NCBI GenBank assembly: GCA_937951485.1
Contig: CALEDJ010000058.1
Span: 23,294-87,293, forward strand
DNA: 64,000 nucleotides
Origin: an uncultured bacterium
Lineage (GTDB): Bacteria; Hydrogenedentota; Hydrogenedentia; Hydrogenedentales; CAILVY01
Direction of reading: 5' to 3'
A program made the translations under genes and the position numbers. The notes under the pieces were generated by a model. That model worked only from the letters and a program-made list of their open reading frames with translations. It ran no database searches and was not told the origin of the DNA. Below, piece after piece: positions 25,172 to 51,648 of this stretch; within the stretch, counting starts at the first letter, position 1, and each line of letters begins with the position of its first letter.

Positions 25172-27184
25172 CTATTCCTGCACCCAGCGGATGACCCGCA
25201 CGTCATGGGGGGGAATGGACAGGCTGAGATGAACCTCGGATTGTGACCGTTCAAACGGCACCGCTGTCCCCTGCCGAAGGTCGAAACATCCGGTGAGTGT
25301 TTCCGCGACGTTCCGGACGGTTACACGCCCTTCCCATGTGCCGGTGTCGTTGTTGGATATGACCACGGTGCGCTGCGTGTCGCCTGCCGTGCTCAACCAT
25401 GCGGCGGGGGGGCCTTCGACGCGCACGGGTTGCACGGCGCCGACGACCTCGTCGAACAGGCGCAGGGCCACACCGCACAGCGGAGCATGTCCTGCTTCAT
25501 ACCAGGGCGCAAGGCAGGTATAGACCACACCCTTGTCCAAAGCATGACGCAGAACCAGCGGGTCCCCTGCGGATGTTGTTGCGAGGACCGCCACGTTCGG
25601 ATTGTCTGCGGCATGCACCGGAACGAAACGGAACGCCTCATGCGTCATGGGCGCGTTGCGCCACCGCCAGGCGCGTCCGACACGGAGTTCCGGTTGGATG
25701 ACTGCGCCGCAGATCCCCGTATCTTCGGGGGTCGCCGTCCCCGCCGCCATGACCAAAGCGCCCCCGTTGCGCACATACGCCATCAGCCGTTCGCGCAAAT
25801 CCGCGTCGAGTTGCACCGGCCCCGCGAGTATCAGCACGGGATAGGGAGACAACGCATCAAGACCGGCTGTTGTGGTCAGCACGTCCACAATATCCCCCCA
25901 GCGGGAATCGCCCATGGCGCGGTAGGGGGACGGGTCCATGCCGGTTTCGTGCATGGCGGCGCGGGCGGTTTGGCGGTCGGTGAAGCGCCCAAAAGGAATG
26001 GGGGGAGGTGCGTAGTATCTGTCCCTGGGTGTGGGAGCGAACTCCGGGGTGATGCATGCCAGCGAAAAGGGGCTGGCGGGCGGGTCGTTTTCCGCGCAGG
26101 CGCCGAATGGAAAGGGGTCCATCGCAAAAACGCTCCCTGGAAACGCCGCGCCGAACAGCCCGTCCAGACCCCGATCGCCCGGGCGGCAGGGCACCCGCGC
26201 GTAGTTCCAGGCCTCGCCGGTGGTTCGCCAATAGGGCGGCGTCATCCAGCCGTGGTCGTCCGGAAGCAGGAACGCCACAGGCCGGTCGGTTTCGCCGGAA
26301 ACAATGTGTTTGACGGTATTCGCAAAAGCATCCACGGCCTGCGCAACAAGCGAGGGCCCTTTGTCGGCGTCCACGAGCAGGTCGCCGCCTTCAATGCGGA
26401 AAACCTGCGCGCCGCTGAAGAAGGACATAAAAAGATGGCGGGTGTACAACGAGGCGGGCAGGTGTTGGACACAACCATGGATAACGCCCCACCAAAGGGA
26501 AAGGTCAATGCCCCACATGCCCCCGTATTGGCGCGCTGCGCCGCGCGCGAAGGCTATGGCGGTCTGCAAATCCTCGACATCATCGTTGCAACGCTCCACG
26601 ATGACGCATTCCACGCCGTGGGCGGCGTAGTGATGGGCGCTGCCGGCGTATCCGACCATCCCCCAGCGACCCACGCCAGGATAAAGCCGTGACAGGGCCA
26701 ACGCTTCGTTCAGATATGCGTCAAAGAGCGCTTTGGCTTCCGCATGGGTGCGCGGTTTGCGGCGAAGCAATTCCTGGGGGAAAGCCACTCCCGCCGAATC
26801 ATCTTCAATCAGATAAAATGCAATGGCATGACCGTCCGTTGCTTCCAACAACCGGCACAGGCTCTGGTCCGGGTCGGGAATCCCCCCGTGGCGGCGCTCC
26901 CAATGCCGGCGGCGGGTTTCGGGATGGCCGGGAATGTCCATAATCGGAACCCATCCGCGACGGCGCAGCGCGCGCATGGTGTCTGCCGTCGCATAGGGCG
27001 ACACCTCCACAGCCCAGCACCATCCGCGCGCCGCCAGCCAGTCCAGCACATGCATGTTGGCCGGGGCCGGGTCCATGTCCCAGACAATCCGGAGCGTTTT
27101 TTCCATGGAATCAGACACCCCGGGCGCAACAGTTTCTGAGGCGGTCAGCGTTGCTGTCGGCAGCAGCGTGGAAATGACTGTCAT
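25172..27184 (-). CDS. Large hypothetical protein, glycosidase-like (TIM-barrel plus amidotransferase-like region)
   Basis: 670 aa, not assigned to a named family. Residues about 35-330 have a barrel-like pattern (IVWDMDPAPANMHVLDWLAARGW, WVPIMDIPGHPETR, AIAFYLIEDDSAG, GRWGMVGYAGSAHHYAAHG, MWGIDLSLWWGVIHG, FMSFFSGAQVFRIEGG) with acidic residues at strand ends, as in glycoside hydrolases. Residues about 420-500 resemble the beta-galactosidase trimerisation/amidotransferase fold (YPVLILAGPVQLD, AYVRNGGALVMAAG). A small beta domain ends the protein. No secretion signal is clear. ATG 27106 is an alternative start. It follows DAHP synthase by 29 bp. Function is inferred only from fold resemblance. 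Confidence 0.6.
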   Translation of the reverse strand: MTVISTLLPTATLTASETVAPGVSDSMEKTLRIVWDMDPAPANMHVLDWLAARGWCWAVEVSPYATADTMRALRRRGWVPIMDIPGHPETRRRHWERRHGGIPDPDQSLCRLLEATDGHAIAFYLIEDDSAGVAFPQELLRRKPRTHAEAKALFDAYLNEALALSRLYPGVGRWGMVGYAGSAHHYAAHGVECVIVERCNDDVEDLQTAIAFARGAARQYGGMWGIDLSLWWGVIHGCVQHLPASLYTRHLFMSFFSGAQVFRIEGGDLLVDADKGPSLVAQAVDAFANTVKHIVSGETDRPVAFLLPDDHGWMTPPYWRTTGEAWNYARVPCRPGDRGLDGLFGAAFPGSVFAMDPFPFGACAENDPPASPFSLACITPEFAPTPRDRYYAPPPIPFGRFTDRQTARAAMHETGMDPSPYRAMGDSRWGDIVDVLTTTAGLDALSPYPVLILAGPVQLDADLRERLMAYVRNGGALVMAAGTATPEDTGICGAVIQPELRVGRAWRWRNAPMTHEAFRFVPVHAADNPNVAVLATTSAGDPLVLRHALDKGVVYTCLAPWYEAGHAPLCGVALRLFDEVVGAVQPVRVEGPPAAWLSTAGDTQRTVVISNNDTGTWEGRVTVRNVAETLTGCFDLRQGTAVPFERSQSEVHLSLSIPPHDVRVIRWVQE

Positions 27185-38117: not shown

Positions 38118-39167
<1,050 letters not shown>

Positions 39168-43169: not shown

Positions 43170-43220
43170 TTGCTTGGATGCGACGGGGTGAAAAATTTAA
43201 TAACTCAAGGAGTAGACACA

Positions 43221-44216
43221 ATGAAAAGTCGGAAATGCGGATTCACATTGATTGAACTGTTGGTTGTCATTGCCATCATCGGCATCCTGGCGGCAATACT
43301 TCTTCCGGCACTTGCGCGGGCGCGCGAAGCGGCGCGCCGATCCTCCTGCCAGAACAATCTCAAGCAATGGGGGTTGGTTTTCAAGATGTATGCCAATGAA
43401 TCTCCAGGGGGCGCATTTCCGCCGAGTCAATATTGGCATCTGAATGGCACCCCGACCCTTCTGGGGGTGCGCGGTTTGTCGCTGTATCCTGAATATTGGA
43501 CCGATCCGAATATCGCACTGTGTCCATCCGATCCCCGGATAACGGACTTTATTGATTTGGCGGGCAAAAGTTTGTCGGAGTGGGTCAGCGATGCAGTCGC
43601 CTTGGGCGCGTCTCAGCGGTGTCTGGACTGCATTTTGTCGCTTCCGGTCTCGTATGCCTACACCGCGTATGCGGTCAACAGCAGTTCGTGGCTGAAGAAT
43701 CTTATCTTTTCCCGTTTCAAAGTCGCCATGCAGAATCAGGTTGCAGGCAACTACGAGACGGTCGCCGCCGCCCAACTGCAGGCGGAAGGATGTCCCCGAA
43801 GGGCGTTCACCGCCTATGGCGATCTGGGCCATAAAGACATTCCGGAATCCCAGCAAGACGCCTCCGGGCAACCGAACGACGACGGGCGGCCCATGACCGG
43901 TTCGATTATGCGGCTGCGCGAGGGAATCGAACGCTTTTTCATTACTGATATCAACAATCCTGCCGGGGCTACCGTCGCCCAGAGCACATTGCCTATCATG
44001 TTGGACGCATGGGCGGACCGGGGCATGTTTTCAGATTTCGGCGACAATGCAGTGACTCGTTTTAACCATATTCCCGGCGGCTGCAATGTGCTGTACATGG
44101 ACGGACACGTAGAGTTCCTGCGTCTGCATTCACAATTCCCCGTAGCCAACTCGCCGCAAGGCACGTATGGGGCGGACCTCTCCACAGTCATGTCCGCGAC
44201 GGCCGGGACCAGTTGA
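43221..44216 (+). CDS. Pseudopilin-like protein 2
   Basis: 331 aa from ATG 43221 (CAAGGAGTAGACACA upstream). Short leader MKSRKCG then [43 protein letters not shown], a classic prepilin signature. The middle is closely related to pilin 1 ([29 protein letters not shown]). The C-terminal motif [20 protein letters not shown] carries H-X9-DG. Unlike pilin 1 it has a sigma-54 promoter and strong ribosome site, so it may be the inducible major subunit. A terminator hairpin separates it from pilin 3. Confidence 0.94.
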
Positions 44217-44260
44217 GAACAGTTCGATCGTCGAAGCAAAGACGGCGAAAGCAGCACGGA

Positions 44261-44290
44261 AGCCCGGCCCGCACAGCGGGTCGGGCTTTG
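44261..44290 (+). terminator. Terminator hairpin between pilin 2 and pilin 3
   Basis: AGCCCGGCCCGC and GCGGGTCGGGCT pair with one mismatch around a 3-base loop, followed by TTTGGCCTGTTTG. It should reduce read-through from pilin 2 into pilin 3. Confidence 0.7.
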
Positions 44291-44355
44291 GCCTGTTTGT
44301 CCAAAATCAACAGAACACAGTGAATACTATGGGGAACATACCTGGGAGCGGGGCC

Positions 44356-45423
44356 ATGAGCAAAGGTCAGGGATTCACGCTGATTGAGCTTCTAGTTGTC
44401 GTTGCGATTATCGGAATTCTTGCGGCAATATTGCTGCCCGCCCTGTCGCGGGCGCGCGAAGCCGCGCGGCGGTCTTCATGTCAGAACAACCTGAAACAAT
44501 GGGGGCTTATTTTCAAAATGTATTCCGGGGAAAATCGGGACCTGTTCCCTGGAGGCGCTCAGGCCGGAAATACGGTGCTCGAAATGGGGCTGAACGGCGC
44601 AAGTCTCTACCCCGAATACTGGACAGACCCATCCATTGCCATTTGCCCATCGGATTCCCATGGCGACCCCGTGGCCACCAATCTGGAGGGCACGACTACC
44701 GTTGAGGCTTATACGAAGGCTCTGCAAACGGCCGCAAGCCGCCGTGACGGCAGCCTCTTTGGCGAGGTCTGTTTCATGGGGCTGAGTTCCGTGCCGATTT
44801 CCTACTTCTATGTACCGTATGCCACCCGGTCGGCATGCCAATTGACCGACGTCATCGCCTCGAAACTGAACTGGGCGATTGCAATAGTAACGAATCCGTC
44901 AGCGTTGCCGCCGGGTTTTCCGCCCCTGGGGCAATTCACGGAAAGCCAGTTGGAGCCTTACGGCTGTGAGGCGGGTTTCCAGTATGCCCCGGGGCTGTTT
45001 CAGGGAGACATGCCCATCCTGCCCGCCAGCGCGGGTTCTTCCGGCGTGGACGACAACGGCGTGCCCATGCCCTCGCGATACTATTTTTTGCGTGAGGGCA
45101 TCGAGCGGTTCCTGATCACGGATATCAATGACCCCGCCGCAAGCGCCCGGGCGCAGAGCGAAATCCCGGTGATGCTGGACGTATGGGCGAATGCGGGGGT
45201 GCTGGGTGCTGGGATTGCGCTGTTCAACCACGCGCCCGGCGGGAGCAATGTGCTGTACATGGACGGGCATGTGACGTTTGTTCGCTACAACACCGTGTTC
45301 CCGGTGGCCAATCAGCCGGTCGAGGTCAACGGACTTCCCACCTACAAGGCGACGGGGCCGATATTCGGTTCGGCCGCCGTGCTGCTGAGCGAAGCGCTGT
45401 TTCTTGCCGGCGGCGGCGGGTGA
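44356..45423 (+). CDS. Pseudopilin-like protein 3
   Basis: 355 aa from ATG 44356 (GGGAGCGGGGCC upstream; ATG 44329 is in frame without a ribosome site). Leader MSKGQG then [43 protein letters not shown]. The middle shares [18 protein letters not shown] with its paralogues but has its own insert. The C-terminal motif is [21 protein letters not shown] Gly-rich end (LFLAGGGG) follows. It is the third paralogue of the locus, probably arising by tandem duplication of pilin 2, and its stop is 4 bp from the stop of the convergent gene. Confidence 0.93.
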
Positions 45424-45427
45424 CGCG

Positions 45428-46822
45428 TTATGGAGCCGGTATTACACCCGCAACGCGGCCCATCCAATACGGCAGAAACAGGTCAATGCCGGGGAATTCA
45501 AAAGGCAAATCCCACGATCCATGGCTGACGCACGGAGACCGCTGCCACATGAAATCGGTGGGCACCCGCTCGCGCGGCAACTGCGCGTATCGGGTGTAGT
45601 CGTCGTGCTCCAGTTCGATGCCGGGCACCTGCCTGAGATCGACCGCACGGCCGAATTTCGGCGGGTCGGGGAAATCAATGAGCAATCCCTCGATGGCGGC
45701 GCGGGCCTTGGGATGCTCGTTGTCGCCAGTGGCGAGCACAAAAATTGCCGCAAAATGCGCGTTGAGATGCGGCGCCACCGCCTCGTGCATCCGGCGCATC
45801 ACCGCGAGAAGCGCTTCCTTCCGGTCCGGGTCCCGTTCCAGCACGCACAGGGTGAACATGCGGATGAAGTTCAGGTTGTTGGCGAAATACTCCCTGTATC
45901 GGATGTCATAGACCCGGCCGCCGCGGTCGGAAAGTCTCCTGCAGAGGTCGGCATAGGGTGCTTCCAGATGGGCGTATTGCCCGGGACATGCGCTGAGGAT
46001 AAGGCGCATCCAAGCCATCTTGAAGAAATCGTTACCCCTTGTGCGGTTGCCTTTGCCGTCCAGAATGTCCCAATCGTCGGCAATAAGCCGGTCGGCCACG
46101 GCGGAGACAATCGTCGCGATGCGCCCCCGGACCTCGTCATCCTCCACATATTTCAAGGCGGCGGCCAACCCGTACTGCGTGCCGTCGTAGATGTCCCTCG
46201 AACTGTAGCCGAGCCAGACCAGTTCTTCATACGGCGGCGCGCCGCGGTAGGCGCGCAGGCCCAGTCCGGGCCTTTCCGGGTCTTCGCCGCGCCCGTAAAC
46301 GCTGTAGTAGCCCTGATATCCGGGATCAGTGGCCGGCCCTGCATACCGCGCGATATAGCCCCGCCGCCCGCTGACGGTGATCAGCAAATCAAACTTGTCC
46401 AATACGCCCACGATGCGCTGACGCAGTTCCGGCCCGGGTTCCACGTGGTGGCGCATGGCGAGCGCCGCCAGGTAATGCCCTGTCCATGTGGCGCTGTCGC
46501 CCAGGCCTTCCAGGCGATAGACCGACGTGCGGTCGTAGTCATGCCACCACACATCCGCACTCAGGCCGTGCGGAAGATGATAGCGATGATACGCGTCAAG
46601 ATAGGCCTCGGCCTTCGCATGCAGGGCGCGGGCCTGTGCCGCATTCATTGCCGGCCAGTCGAAAGCCGTATCGCGCGCCATGGCGCGGAGCGCCTCCTCC
46701 TGCTGCGACGACAATCCCGTCGTCTCCTCGGCTGATGCAGCATTGGAAACCGTCATGAAGGCGAAAATTCCCAACCAATGGGCGGCGATTATCGGAAGAA
46801 GTTGAATTTTTTGCACTACCAT
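45428..46822 (-). CDS. Secreted hypothetical protein, probable alpha/alpha-barrel
   Basis: 464 aa, not assigned to a named family. N-terminal signal peptide with a hydrophobic core (LLPIIAAHWLGIFAFMTVSNAASA). The mature part is helix-rich with repeated aromatic and acidic motifs (ADVWWHDYDRTSVYRLEGLGDSATWTGHYLAALAM, GNDFFKMAWMRLILSA, NNLNFIRMFTLCVLERD), resembling (alpha/alpha)6 toroid enzymes or lyases. AAAGGAACATGCCAA precedes the ATG. It may act on polysaccharide in the periplasm; no catalytic residues can be named. MITE copy 2 lies directly upstream. Confidence 0.65.
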   Translation of the reverse strand: MVVQKIQLLPIIAAHWLGIFAFMTVSNAASAEETTGLSSQQEEALRAMARDTAFDWPAMNAAQARALHAKAEAYLDAYHRYHLPHGLSADVWWHDYDRTSVYRLEGLGDSATWTGHYLAALAMRHHVEPGPELRQRIVGVLDKFDLLITVSGRRGYIARYAGPATDPGYQGYYSVYGRGEDPERPGLGLRAYRGAPPYEELVWLGYSSRDIYDGTQYGLAAALKYVEDDEVRGRIATIVSAVADRLIADDWDILDGKGNRTRGNDFFKMAWMRLILSACPGQYAHLEAPYADLCRRLSDRGGRVYDIRYREYFANNLNFIRMFTLCVLERDPDRKEALLAVMRRMHEAVAPHLNAHFAAIFVLATGDNEHPKARAAIEGLLIDFPDPPKFGRAVDLRQVPGIELEHDDYTRYAQLPRERVPTDFMWQRSPCVSHGSWDLPFEFPGIDLFLPYWMGRVAGVIPAP

Positions 46823-47346: not shown

Positions 47347-48906
47347 TCATTCCTGGATGGCCGCCGCAAGCCGTGTGTACAGGTCCTTGACGGCCGGGTA
47401 CAGGTCGCGGTAAATGGCATATAGTTTTCTGTATCGGGCGTGATTGTCAGTATTCGGGGTGGCATGTGCGTCGAGTTGCACCCAGTCCCGGACGACTTCG
47501 TAGTTCTTGTAGATACCCACGCCGACTCCCGCGACCACGGCATTGCCGACCGGGGCGCCTTTGCTTGAAACCGCAAGGGCGCATTCAACATTAAGAATGT
47601 CTGCAATGATTTGCCGCCACATGGCGCTGTTGGCGCCGCCTTCGCTGAGGATGATGGGAAGGTCCATCTTGATGCCGCTGGCCTGCATCAACTCGAAATT
47701 GTGGAGCAATCCAAAACCGGCGCCTTCCATCAGGGAGCGAATGACATGGCCGCGGCCGTGGTCAAGGCTCAGACCGAATAGAACGCCGCGCGCATGGGTG
47801 TCCCAGATGGGGGTGCGTTCGCCCATGAAATACGGCAGCGTGATCAGTCCCGCGCTGCCCGGCGGCACATGTTTCGCCTCTTCATTAATCAGATCGTAGG
47901 CGTTGACGCCCGCCATCTGCTGCGCGGCCATTTCAAGGTGGCCGAAGGTGTCGCGGAAGTAGCGCACGAGCGCCCCGCACGAAACCAACGCGGCCAGCGT
48001 CGTGTAGAGTCGCCGTGAATCGGCCGTGTGAACGATGGTGATCATGTCCTTGGTGAATTTGGGTTCATCATGGACGACGCCGAGCACGCCCGCCGTGCCC
48101 ATCACCAGTTGGGTGGACCCCGACGCGACCGCGCCGCCCGCCACCCATGCCGCGTTGCAATCCACGGTGCCGGCCACCACCGGCGTTCCCGGGGCAAGCC
48201 CGGTTCGCTCCGCAGCCTCACGCGTCACTTCGCCAATCACTTCATCACATGCGTATGCCTCGGGAAACTTGTCCGGATCAAGCCCCAATTCCTCTATCAG
48301 GTCCTTGTCCCAACGGCGATTCACGATGTCGAAAGCGATGCCGATAAGCGAGGCGTTGGAAAAATCCGTCACGGGTTTTCCGGTCAGTTTCATGCATGGG
48401 TAGTCGGCCGCCGTCTGGAACTTGTAGGTGTTGCGGTACAGGTCCGGCCGGTTGTTGCGTTCCCACATCAACTTTGCAGTGGCGTAGTAGGGGTCCACGG
48501 GATTGGCGCTGAGATTGAACACCCGTTCCTCGCCGACATGTTGGCGAATCCAGTCACATTCGGCCGTTGCGCGGCGATCCATCCAGATGTGGGCGTTCTG
48601 CAGCGGCCGCAGATCCTGGTCCACCAGGATACAGGCAGGCGAAAGCGCGCTGATCGAAACGCCCTTGATATCCCGGGGGTTTGCCTTGGCGTTGCGAATG
48701 GAAACCTGAATCGTATCCGCAACTGCGTTCCAGTACCATTCGGGGTCATGTTCCGCTTTTGCCCCGGGATAATTCTCCCCCGGACCCTTCTTTGTTATCA
48801 GCGGATACTCGATGTAATGCGTACCCAGCACTTCACCATCCACCGACATCACCACGGCCTTTGTGCCTCCTGTTCCAACATCGCAACCAACAAGCAAATC
48901 AGCCAT
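47347..48906 (-). CDS. FGGY-family carbohydrate kinase (xylulokinase-like)
   Basis: 519 aa from ATG 48906 (CAGGAGAAACGAA upstream); the longer ORF runs into the mini-element. The N-terminal phosphate motif LVGCDVGTGGTKAVV, the sugar-binding IWMDRRATAE, the second domain GTPVVAGTVDCNAAWVAGGAV, PYFMGERTPIWD, and the adenosine-motif SEGGANSAMWRQIIADIL are typical of FGGY kinases. It phosphorylates a pentose, pentulose or related polyol; xylulose is the default guess, not proven. It is transcribed alone, between two mobile-element remnants. Confidence 0.93.
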   Translation of the reverse strand: MADLLVGCDVGTGGTKAVVMSVDGEVLGTHYIEYPLITKKGPGENYPGAKAEHDPEWYWNAVADTIQVSIRNAKANPRDIKGVSISALSPACILVDQDLRPLQNAHIWMDRRATAECDWIRQHVGEERVFNLSANPVDPYYATAKLMWERNNRPDLYRNTYKFQTAADYPCMKLTGKPVTDFSNASLIGIAFDIVNRRWDKDLIEELGLDPDKFPEAYACDEVIGEVTREAAERTGLAPGTPVVAGTVDCNAAWVAGGAVASGSTQLVMGTAGVLGVVHDEPKFTKDMITIVHTADSRRLYTTLAALVSCGALVRYFRDTFGHLEMAAQQMAGVNAYDLINEEAKHVPPGSAGLITLPYFMGERTPIWDTHARGVLFGLSLDHGRGHVIRSLMEGAGFGLLHNFELMQASGIKMDLPIILSEGGANSAMWRQIIADILNVECALAVSSKGAPVGNAVVAGVGVGIYKNYEVVRDWVQLDAHATPNTDNHARYRKLYAIYRDLYPAVKDLYTRLAAAIQE

Positions 48907-49017: not shown

Positions 49018-49094
49018 AATCACAGCCATCCCACAGGATCGATCCACAAATGGCTTGACATGGAAGAATCAACCCCAACAGGATGGCTGTGATT
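49018..49094. mobile_element. Mini-element with IS4-type ends (77 bp including both repeats)
   Basis: AATCACAGCCATCC at 49018-49031 is inverted perfectly as GGATGGCTGTGATT at 49081-49094, leaving only 49 bp inside. The ends resemble those of the IS4-like remnant at 51743-52502 (CACAG-C-TCCCAT). Flanks show an imperfect repeat ATTCT(C/T)A (49012 and 49092). Too short to encode anything; probably an extreme deletion derivative moved in trans. It lies 112 bp upstream of the FGGY kinase start. Confidence 0.7.
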
Positions 49095-49191: not shown

Positions 49192-51648
49192 CTATTCGTC
49201 GTTTTTGCGGGGGTTGGGCGTATAGGGAGCATCATTATCAATACCGGGCTGAAGTTTCATATGCGTTTGGTCGGAGCCGCGGTGGGCGTACATAATCTCC
49301 GCCATGTTGGGAAAGGCGGGGTCCGTGCGGATGATCCGCCACTTTCCATCCGTCTCTCTACGCCAGGTATAAACGACTTCCTCATCCGCGTGCCGTGGGA
49401 TGCGCATTGTGCCGTCATAGCCGTAACCGAATGGCTGATCGTCATAGCGGATTGCGCGACAAAGGGAGAACAGCCGCACGCGAACATGGGCGTTTGTCTC
49501 GTATTCTGAAAAATCCCAGTATCGAATCTGACGGAGCATGACGCCGTCGGCATTGCGAATGAACCACCACTTCCACGCCCATTCTACATACTCGCGGTGG
49601 TGCCCGTTGGGGTCTTCATAATCCTCGGAATAGAACGATACGACCCCCTTGAAATCCCAGCCGTCGTAGGCCGCCTTGAAGGCGTCAAGCGCCGCAACGA
49701 TCGCATCGGCCACGGCCCGATGGTGCGATTCCACTCCGTCAAACGTGGGATAGACCGTCTGTTTTTCGGGGCGGTCGTCCATTGGGTCGAAAACGCGACG
49801 GACAAGGATTTCGCCGGAGGGTTGCACAATGGCCTCTTCCCCGGGGATGCTTTCCGTTTCGCTGAAAACCAGATAGTCGAGATAGTTGACGGTTCCCTCC
49901 TTGGGGGCGCGTGTGGTGGTAATGGCGGTTACGGTATAGGTGTATGGCAGGGCGGGGTCGCGGGAGGTGTCGAGAAAGAACGCATCCACGGTGGCACCGA
50001 CAATCGGAAGGGGATCGGCAAACGGCACAATGGGCGTCGTGACGGCGGCCTTCAGTCCCGGCGACGCCTCCGACATCATTTCCGGGTCGGTCTTCGGCGT
50101 TGTCGCCCGCCGCCACCGGCACTTGGAATATCCCCGCGGCGTGGGCAGGCTGTTCCCTTCGACCCGTCGCACGCGGTATTCCACGGCGCCCGGGTCCGCG
50201 GTCCACGAAAGGCGCACCCCGCCGTCCACGATTTCGGCCGACAGGCCCGATACGGGTCGGGGCAGCATCACCCGGTAGCGCTGCCGGTCATACAGGTTCT
50301 CATGGGTCTGCATCACATAGGTGCGGTCCTTGACGCTTGCCACAAAGGCCTCGTTTTCATCCGGGGGATAGTGCTGTGCCAGCAACGCCTCGTATGCCTC
50401 CACCGAATCACAGCGGCCGGGGCGGACAACGTCTTCGAACAGGTCGAGAACCTCCCGGCCTGCCGTGGGCGCCAGAATCGGGATGAAAAAGTGACGGCCC
50501 TTGTTCGGGATCAACTCGTGTTCGAGATACCGGCTCCACAACCCATAGGCCGCGCGTGCGAACAACCCCTTGTCGCCTATCCAGTCCACATCGCGCAGAT
50601 TCTCGTGAAATTCCGTGATGCTCGCGGCCGGCTTCAGTTGGAATGCCACTTTTAATTTGCCCAGAATTTCATCGCGTTCAGGAATATAGCGGCCCGTAAT
50701 CACTTCCATCAGCGTGGGATAAATGACATCGCGCCAGCAATGGGAATTGTCGTAATCGAACAAGTCCCAGAACGGTTCAAAATTATAGACGGTCGCCCCC
50801 AGCATCGCGCCCAGCAGAATCATCGCCCGGTACAGGTCCGGCGGCATGATGCGCGTGTTGTCCGGTTCAGATTGGCCGAATATCCCCGGCTCGATCATCC
50901 GGCCGTTCTCATACCACCAGGACTGCGGCTCTACGCCCCAATGCCGAACATCCCCGGCCACCCACGAACCCCACACCGACGTCGTTCGCTGAATCAGCCG
51001 CGGCCCGATGTGCTCCGAGATGGGAATGCACCGGTCGCCGTTCCGGCGGATCGCCTCCGCCAGCGGTTCATTGAGGCGGTCCGTCCAGATGTGCATCCAT
51101 TTAAGGTCCTGCAAGGAAATTGTCATGAATTTGTCATGACGGCACGCCATATCAAGCATGTCCATCGCGTACCGCGTATTCGGCGGCGTCGCATAGCGCG
51201 GCACATTGAAATCGGAATAGAACTCAAAGCGGTTTTCCGTGATGGCCAGCACCTTGATGCAGGAAAACTCTTCGAGAAGTTTCTCCACATAAACCGGGTC
51301 AAACACAAACCTGTCATGCGGGTCCGCGATTTGGATGTCCGCCGGAATGCCCGCATTCTCGAGGTGTTCGAGGACCCGCCGAAATGCCTCATAGCGGAGA
51401 ACATGGTCACTTCGCCGCACCTCTATCTGCAGGTGGCAATAAGGCTTGATGTCATCCGGGACGGCCTCGCGCCATGCGCGCACCGCTTCGCGGCCATGCT
51501 TCACCGCCTCTTCCATGATGTCGCCGGGCGACGGCACCTCCTCCGAATCACCAAAGCGGGGAGATGTTTGCAGCGTAATCATTGGGGACCGGGCCGTAAT
51601 GATTTGTGCGGGGCTGTTCTTGGGCGGCAGGAATGTACTCTCGATCAT
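49192..51648 (-). CDS. GH98-like glycoside hydrolase fused to an NTF2-like C-terminal domain
   Basis: 818 aa from ATG 51648 (ATGGAGTTCCG upstream; the ORF-track start 51735 lies close to the IS end). Residues about 20-420 have the GH98 catalytic pattern: LQIEVRRSDHVLRYEAF, GDRCIPISEHIGPR, QSWWYENGRMIEPGIFGQSE, MPPDLYRAMILLGAMLGATVYNFEPFWDLF, and IYPTLMEVI. A beta-sandwich/Fn3-like region follows (VRLSWTADPGAVEYRVRRVEG). Residues about 655-790 look like an NTF2/SnoaL-fold domain (FKAAYDGWDFKGVVSFYSEDYEDPNG). GH98 enzymes are endo-beta-galactosidases on blood-group or xylan-like glycans. No signal peptide is seen, unusual for a GH98. Confidence 0.8.
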   Translation of the reverse strand: MIESTFLPPKNSPAQIITARSPMITLQTSPRFGDSEEVPSPGDIMEEAVKHGREAVRAWREAVPDDIKPYCHLQIEVRRSDHVLRYEAFRRVLEHLENAGIPADIQIADPHDRFVFDPVYVEKLLEEFSCIKVLAITENRFEFYSDFNVPRYATPPNTRYAMDMLDMACRHDKFMTISLQDLKWMHIWTDRLNEPLAEAIRRNGDRCIPISEHIGPRLIQRTTSVWGSWVAGDVRHWGVEPQSWWYENGRMIEPGIFGQSEPDNTRIMPPDLYRAMILLGAMLGATVYNFEPFWDLFDYDNSHCWRDVIYPTLMEVITGRYIPERDEILGKLKVAFQLKPAASITEFHENLRDVDWIGDKGLFARAAYGLWSRYLEHELIPNKGRHFFIPILAPTAGREVLDLFEDVVRPGRCDSVEAYEALLAQHYPPDENEAFVASVKDRTYVMQTHENLYDRQRYRVMLPRPVSGLSAEIVDGGVRLSWTADPGAVEYRVRRVEGNSLPTPRGYSKCRWRRATTPKTDPEMMSEASPGLKAAVTTPIVPFADPLPIVGATVDAFFLDTSRDPALPYTYTVTAITTTRAPKEGTVNYLDYLVFSETESIPGEEAIVQPSGEILVRRVFDPMDDRPEKQTVYPTFDGVESHHRAVADAIVAALDAFKAAYDGWDFKGVVSFYSEDYEDPNGHHREYVEWAWKWWFIRNADGVMLRQIRYWDFSEYETNAHVRVRLFSLCRAIRYDDQPFGYGYDGTMRIPRHADEEVVYTWRRETDGKWRIIRTDPAFPNMAEIMYAHRGSDQTHMKLQPGIDNDAPYTPNPRKNDE

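Follow-up and report, generated by a model that had tools for sequence, protein, structure and literature searches.

A GH98-Fold Protein With an NTF2-Like Domain and an Altered Active Site Is a Phylum-Wide Architecture of Hydrogenedentota

The reverse-strand gene at 49192..51648 of the window, the whole 64,000-nucleotide stretch of DNA that was analysed, encodes an 818-aa protein (from its open reading frame and translation) that is a GH98 relative by fold and Pfam. Its domains follow one another as a GH98-type barrel, a GH98-C-like β region, an Fn3-like sandwich, and an NTF2-like domain. This GH98-fold/NTF2 fusion is a fixed architecture throughout the phylum Hydrogenedentota, and the 818-aa protein is a type I member of the family. 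Because one catalytic carboxylate is missing, the protein should not count as a canonical GH98. The function that we favor, with about an even chance of being correct, is that of a cytoplasmic GH98-related glycosidase that acts on imported oligosaccharides and uses its NTF2 pocket as an accessory ligand site.

The start codon is ATG 51648, with GGAG just 5′ of it. The (β/α)8 barrel of GH98 type spans residues 20–330 (50659..51591, reverse strand), as delimited by the Pfam match, by eight strands and helices in the predicted structure, and by Foldseek matches to GH98. The protein matches PF08306 (GH98M) at E = 2.2e-6, its score of 27.6 bits exceeding the cutoff of 23, and GH98M is matched at E ≤ 1 in 24 of 26 relatives. 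PDB GH98 chains are reached at E ~7e-4 in a single-sequence search with the 818-aa protein and at E = 1.5e-24 with a profile built from 26 relatives. With a profile limited to type I, no PDB GH98 chain is found at E ≤ 1, so it is the wider family and the fold that support the GH98 link. When the AlphaFold2 model (pLDDT 88.1, pTM 0.90; input alignment of 34 sequences) was searched in full with Foldseek, the GH98 (β/α)8 fold was recovered together with the following β domain: ranks 1–26 are all solved GH98 chains (best E 2.6e-24), and NTF2-like proteins are among the next matches. The β region that extends the GH98 match, similar to the GH98 C-terminal part, covers residues 331–463 (50260..50658, reverse strand), with the profile alignment to 2wmf continuing up to profile position 479 and Foldseek aligning ~500 columns. 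Next comes the Fn3-like β-sandwich at residues 464–598 (49855..50259, reverse strand), which is recognized by its strands, its pLDDT, and profile matches to 3mpc (E = 3e-7 for the profile of the whole family, 0.0046 for that of type I), and which contains an insert near residues 519–544 of low confidence in the model. A GH98-like catalytic part and a β-sandwich after it had both been proposed in an earlier note made from the sequence alone, and these results bear them out.

The NTF2-like domain occupies residues 632–790 (49279..49755, reverse strand), a placement based on Foldseek of the domain alone and on invariant residues. Folded alone, the domain (165 residues) is predicted with pLDDT 91; its best NTF2-like match is 3hx8 (E = 9.2e-7), and 3rob gives a target TM of 0.70–0.71. 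The predicted structure has the cone-shaped α+β fold of the NTF2-like superfamily. The Pfam search returned no SnoaL or NTF2 match in the 818-aa protein, and the best among relatives, SnoaL_2, falls below the cutoff (E = 0.22). Of the earlier description of the C terminus as SnoaL/NTF2-like, the NTF2 fold therefore stands as a prediction supported by structure, not by sequence, and the SnoaL family assignment does not. Aromatic and charged residues are among the domain's invariants (Y673, Y677, D679, Y687, Q707, R709, and W711), and their placement in the pocket is putative. Pgp2 is among the structural matches of the domain, as are ketosteroid isomerase-like and dehydratase proteins. The cell-wall carboxypeptidases Pgp2, Csd6, and Bd1075, all structural matches, resemble the 818-aa protein in that an NTF2-like accessory domain comes after the catalytic one, although their catalytic domain is an LD-carboxypeptidase instead of a glycosidase, and Pgp2 is a periplasmic enzyme. 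In Pgp2, the NTF2 accessory domain binds glycan-peptide ligands, with peptidoglycan fragments bound in its pocket (PMC8038945).

The family tree splits type I from type II with a support of 100, and active-site residues were counted in 15 type I and 27 type II proteins. E138, at the end of strand 4 (51235..51237, reverse strand), is the counterpart of the GH98 acid Glu158 and is present in 15/15 type I and 0/27 type II proteins, the latter having Gly (15), Asp (8), Asn (3), or Ala (1) at this position. Both an ungapped alignment and the strand position put E138 at the place of the GH98 general acid. The mixed profile leaves this pairing ambiguous, placing E142 at the acid site, and the ungapped alignment favors E138 in the 818-aa protein and in 11 of the 15 type I rows. 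E142 scores higher in a few relatives, but it was rejected as the acid given its lower score in the 818-aa protein and the Ala that four type I relatives have at this position. In the 2wmg chain, E158 is replaced by Ala. At the end of strand 8, E291 (50776..50778, reverse strand) aligns to 2wmf as the counterpart of Glu301, the second base-side carboxylate of GH98; it is found in 15/15 type I and 8/27 type II proteins, the position being variable in type II. The catalytic Asp of GH98 is not retained. In the alignment to 2wmf its site is taken by Q242 (50923..50925, reverse strand), which is Gln in 15/15 type I proteins and Asp in 13/27 type II proteins. The canonical residues of Sp4GH98, which we take to be E158, D251, and E301, thus correspond to E138, Q242, and E291. 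Further carboxylates mark type I, namely E212 at the end of strand 6 (51013..51015, reverse strand; all 14 type I proteins with a residue there, 1/27 type II) and E240 at the end of strand 7 (50929..50931, reverse strand; strand 238–240), which is invariant in type I and present in 3/27 type II proteins. D295 is likewise invariant in the 15 type I proteins. In divergent homologs from another phylum, Hinthialibacterota, which are ~40% identical, E138, E212, E240, Q242, E291, and D295 are all kept, as would be expected of a working site. The earlier reading of the protein as a GH98 enzyme is therefore sustained by the domain calls but not by the active site, which departs from GH98 through the change of Asp to Gln and the extra invariant Glu. 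GH98 activity is thus not secured, and with the Asp lost in type I, activity cannot be assumed.

The lack of a secretion signal, which had also been remarked on before, was confirmed. An in-frame extension from 51648 upstream to TTG 51735 contains no hydrophobic segment, and nine relatives of the same clade likewise start just before strand β1; a wrong start hiding a signal peptide was rejected on these grounds. Signal-like N-terminal segments are present in sister type I proteins and in all type II proteins. By a hydropathy window, which is a crude test and not a trained signal-peptide predictor, the maximum 12-residue mean in the first 45 residues is ≤1.44 in ten clade members and ≥1.89 in the others, the one exception being L029, which duplicates L063 with its start set too far upstream. 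A branch with SH-aLRT 93 separates the ten signal-less type I proteins from the rest of the tree. Judging by these N-termini, most relatives appear to be exported, and the signal peptide was probably lost once, in a single type I branch. Type II is also present in 9/10 genomes with a signal-less type I protein vs. 1/5 with a secreted one (Fisher p = 0.017). This is a lead only, since identity served to assign the types, the genomes are related to one another, and the ten include an incomplete one.

The GH98-fold/NTF2 family was found in 47/60 relatives and the NTF2 domain in 50 of the 68 Hydrogenedentota genomes searched, a degree of conservation that rules out a one-off or chance fusion. All NTF2-domain matches in the 68 genomes fall either in a long frame as large as the family's proteins or in a short one that would fit a gene truncated where its contig ends. 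These genomes showed no second architecture, and the NTF2 domain is apparently confined to the GH98-fold/NTF2 protein in Hydrogenedentota. A scan of 84,980 species, with one genome per species and three short patterns that may miss very divergent relatives, returned, apart from Hydrogenedentota, only a single record of Hinthialibacteria and one under the name Nitrospiraceae. The latter, OTbin.67 (L046), has matching contigs identical to those of G054, in the order of the window; its name is thus probably wrong, and a spread to Nitrospirota was discarded. Within Hinthialibacterota, the protein was found in 2 of 14 genomes. One Hinthialibacterota genome has two near-identical gene copies (L094 and L095) at the same position on two contigs, perhaps strain variants within the bin. 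Among the papers in the collection searched, none mentions GH98 together with SnoaL.

The GH98 endo-β-galactosidases Sp4GH98, Sp3GH98, and RgGH98 (PDB 2wmf/2wmh, 4d6c, and 7q20) share the barrel and the following β region with the 818-aa protein, and both their acid Glu and the Glu that ends strand 8 align with it. They differ in having the catalytic Asp where the 818-aa protein has Gln, and they bear Gal-binding-type modules, whereas the 818-aa protein has an NTF2-like C-terminal module and no signal peptide. The general acids that correspond to E138 are E158 in Sp4, E411 in RgGH98, and E361 in BACOVA. The model also matches the fold of the Bacteroides ovatus GH98 endoxylanase BACOVA_03433 (PDB 9h6g and 9h6h), a cell-surface enzyme, unlike the signal-less 818-aa protein. 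To our knowledge, BACOVA_03433 has no NTF2 domain. Its key residues are Glu361 and Asp467 (PMC4491172), and Asp467 probably corresponds to Gln242, as judged from spacing only.

We infer catalysis, residue roles, an oligosaccharide substrate, and a role of the NTF2 pocket as follows. Imported oligosaccharides would bind in the barrel, where E138, which ends strand 4, would act as the general acid, and E291 and/or E240 would provide the carboxylate activating water, a step in which canonical GH98 enzymes use the Asp whose place Gln242 has taken here. The NTF2-like pocket at the C terminus would serve as an accessory site for ligands, as in Pgp2, and would help to keep substrate or product in place. 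Action on imported oligosaccharides is plausible, and the FGGY sugar kinase directly downstream, at 47347–48906, fits sugar catabolism. An FGGY kinase was not found beside the genes of relatives, and operon logic was set aside, as no gene neighbor is common to the type I relatives, which counts against the glycosidase reading.

That the protein is instead a non-hydrolytic GH98 descendant, in which the barrel binds sugar as a sensor or scaffold without cutting it, is possible but doubtful. It would agree with the loss of the catalytic Asp and with the absence of the acid Glu from the sister type II proteins, which suggests that catalysis is easily lost in this family. However, type I never varies at the acid Glu or at three further strand-end carboxylates, and these also persist at ~40% identity, which is more than a mere scaffold would need. 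Type II proteins and the Hinthialibacterota homologs show reverse patterns, and both bear on the unlikely proposal that the NTF2-like domain is the catalyst (an isomerase, dehydratase, or similar) to which the barrel delivers sugar, making the protein bifunctional or the barrel auxiliary. Type II keeps the NTF2 invariants despite the lost barrel acid, and this proposal is also in line with the ketosteroid isomerase-like and dehydratase proteins among the structural relatives; against it, the Hinthialibacterota homologs have an altered R-Q-I-R motif in the NTF2 domain with the barrel residues unchanged, and NTF2 domains fused to cell-wall enzymes have been described as non-catalytic (PMC8038945). 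If the protein were nonetheless exported, through a pathway that needs no classical signal peptide or because translation starts elsewhere, it would agree with its sister type I and type II proteins, but this is very improbable, given that ten proteins of one clade begin right before strand β1 and that neither they nor the upstream extension offer a hydrophobic stretch.

It has also been considered, though this would be a rather long shot, that type I switched the inverting set of GH98 for a strand 4/strand 7 layout (E138 and E240) as in the retaining glycosidases of clan GH-A, with one branch moving to the cytoplasm beside a secreted paralog without the acid. Should the favored reading as a cytoplasmic glycosidase be true, GH98, known from enzymes that gut and airway bacteria export, would have an environmental intracellular branch with a different set of active-site residues and an NTF2 pocket. 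The family would then offer a compact natural example of how an active site can change while the fold stays the same, in which paralogs lost the acid and kept the NTF2 domain. Naming such proteins plain GH98 from a Pfam match overstates what is known of them.

Other features were observed in the window. A perfect 14-bp inverted repeat (AATCACAGCCATCC, with 49 nt between the arms) lies at 49018–49094, between the GH98/NTF2 gene and the FGGY kinase, and a terminator scan found no T run after it. A 670-aa protein at 25172–27184 (reverse strand) resembles a divergent glycosidase-type protein, its matches to the GLMA second domain and GH42M all being sub-threshold. For a 464-aa protein at 45428–46822 (reverse strand), which begins with a signal-like segment, neither Pfam nor NCBIfam gave a match. 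On the forward strand, three proteins that resemble one another and have pseudopilin-like N-termini are clustered at 38118–39167, 43170–44216, and 44167–45423.
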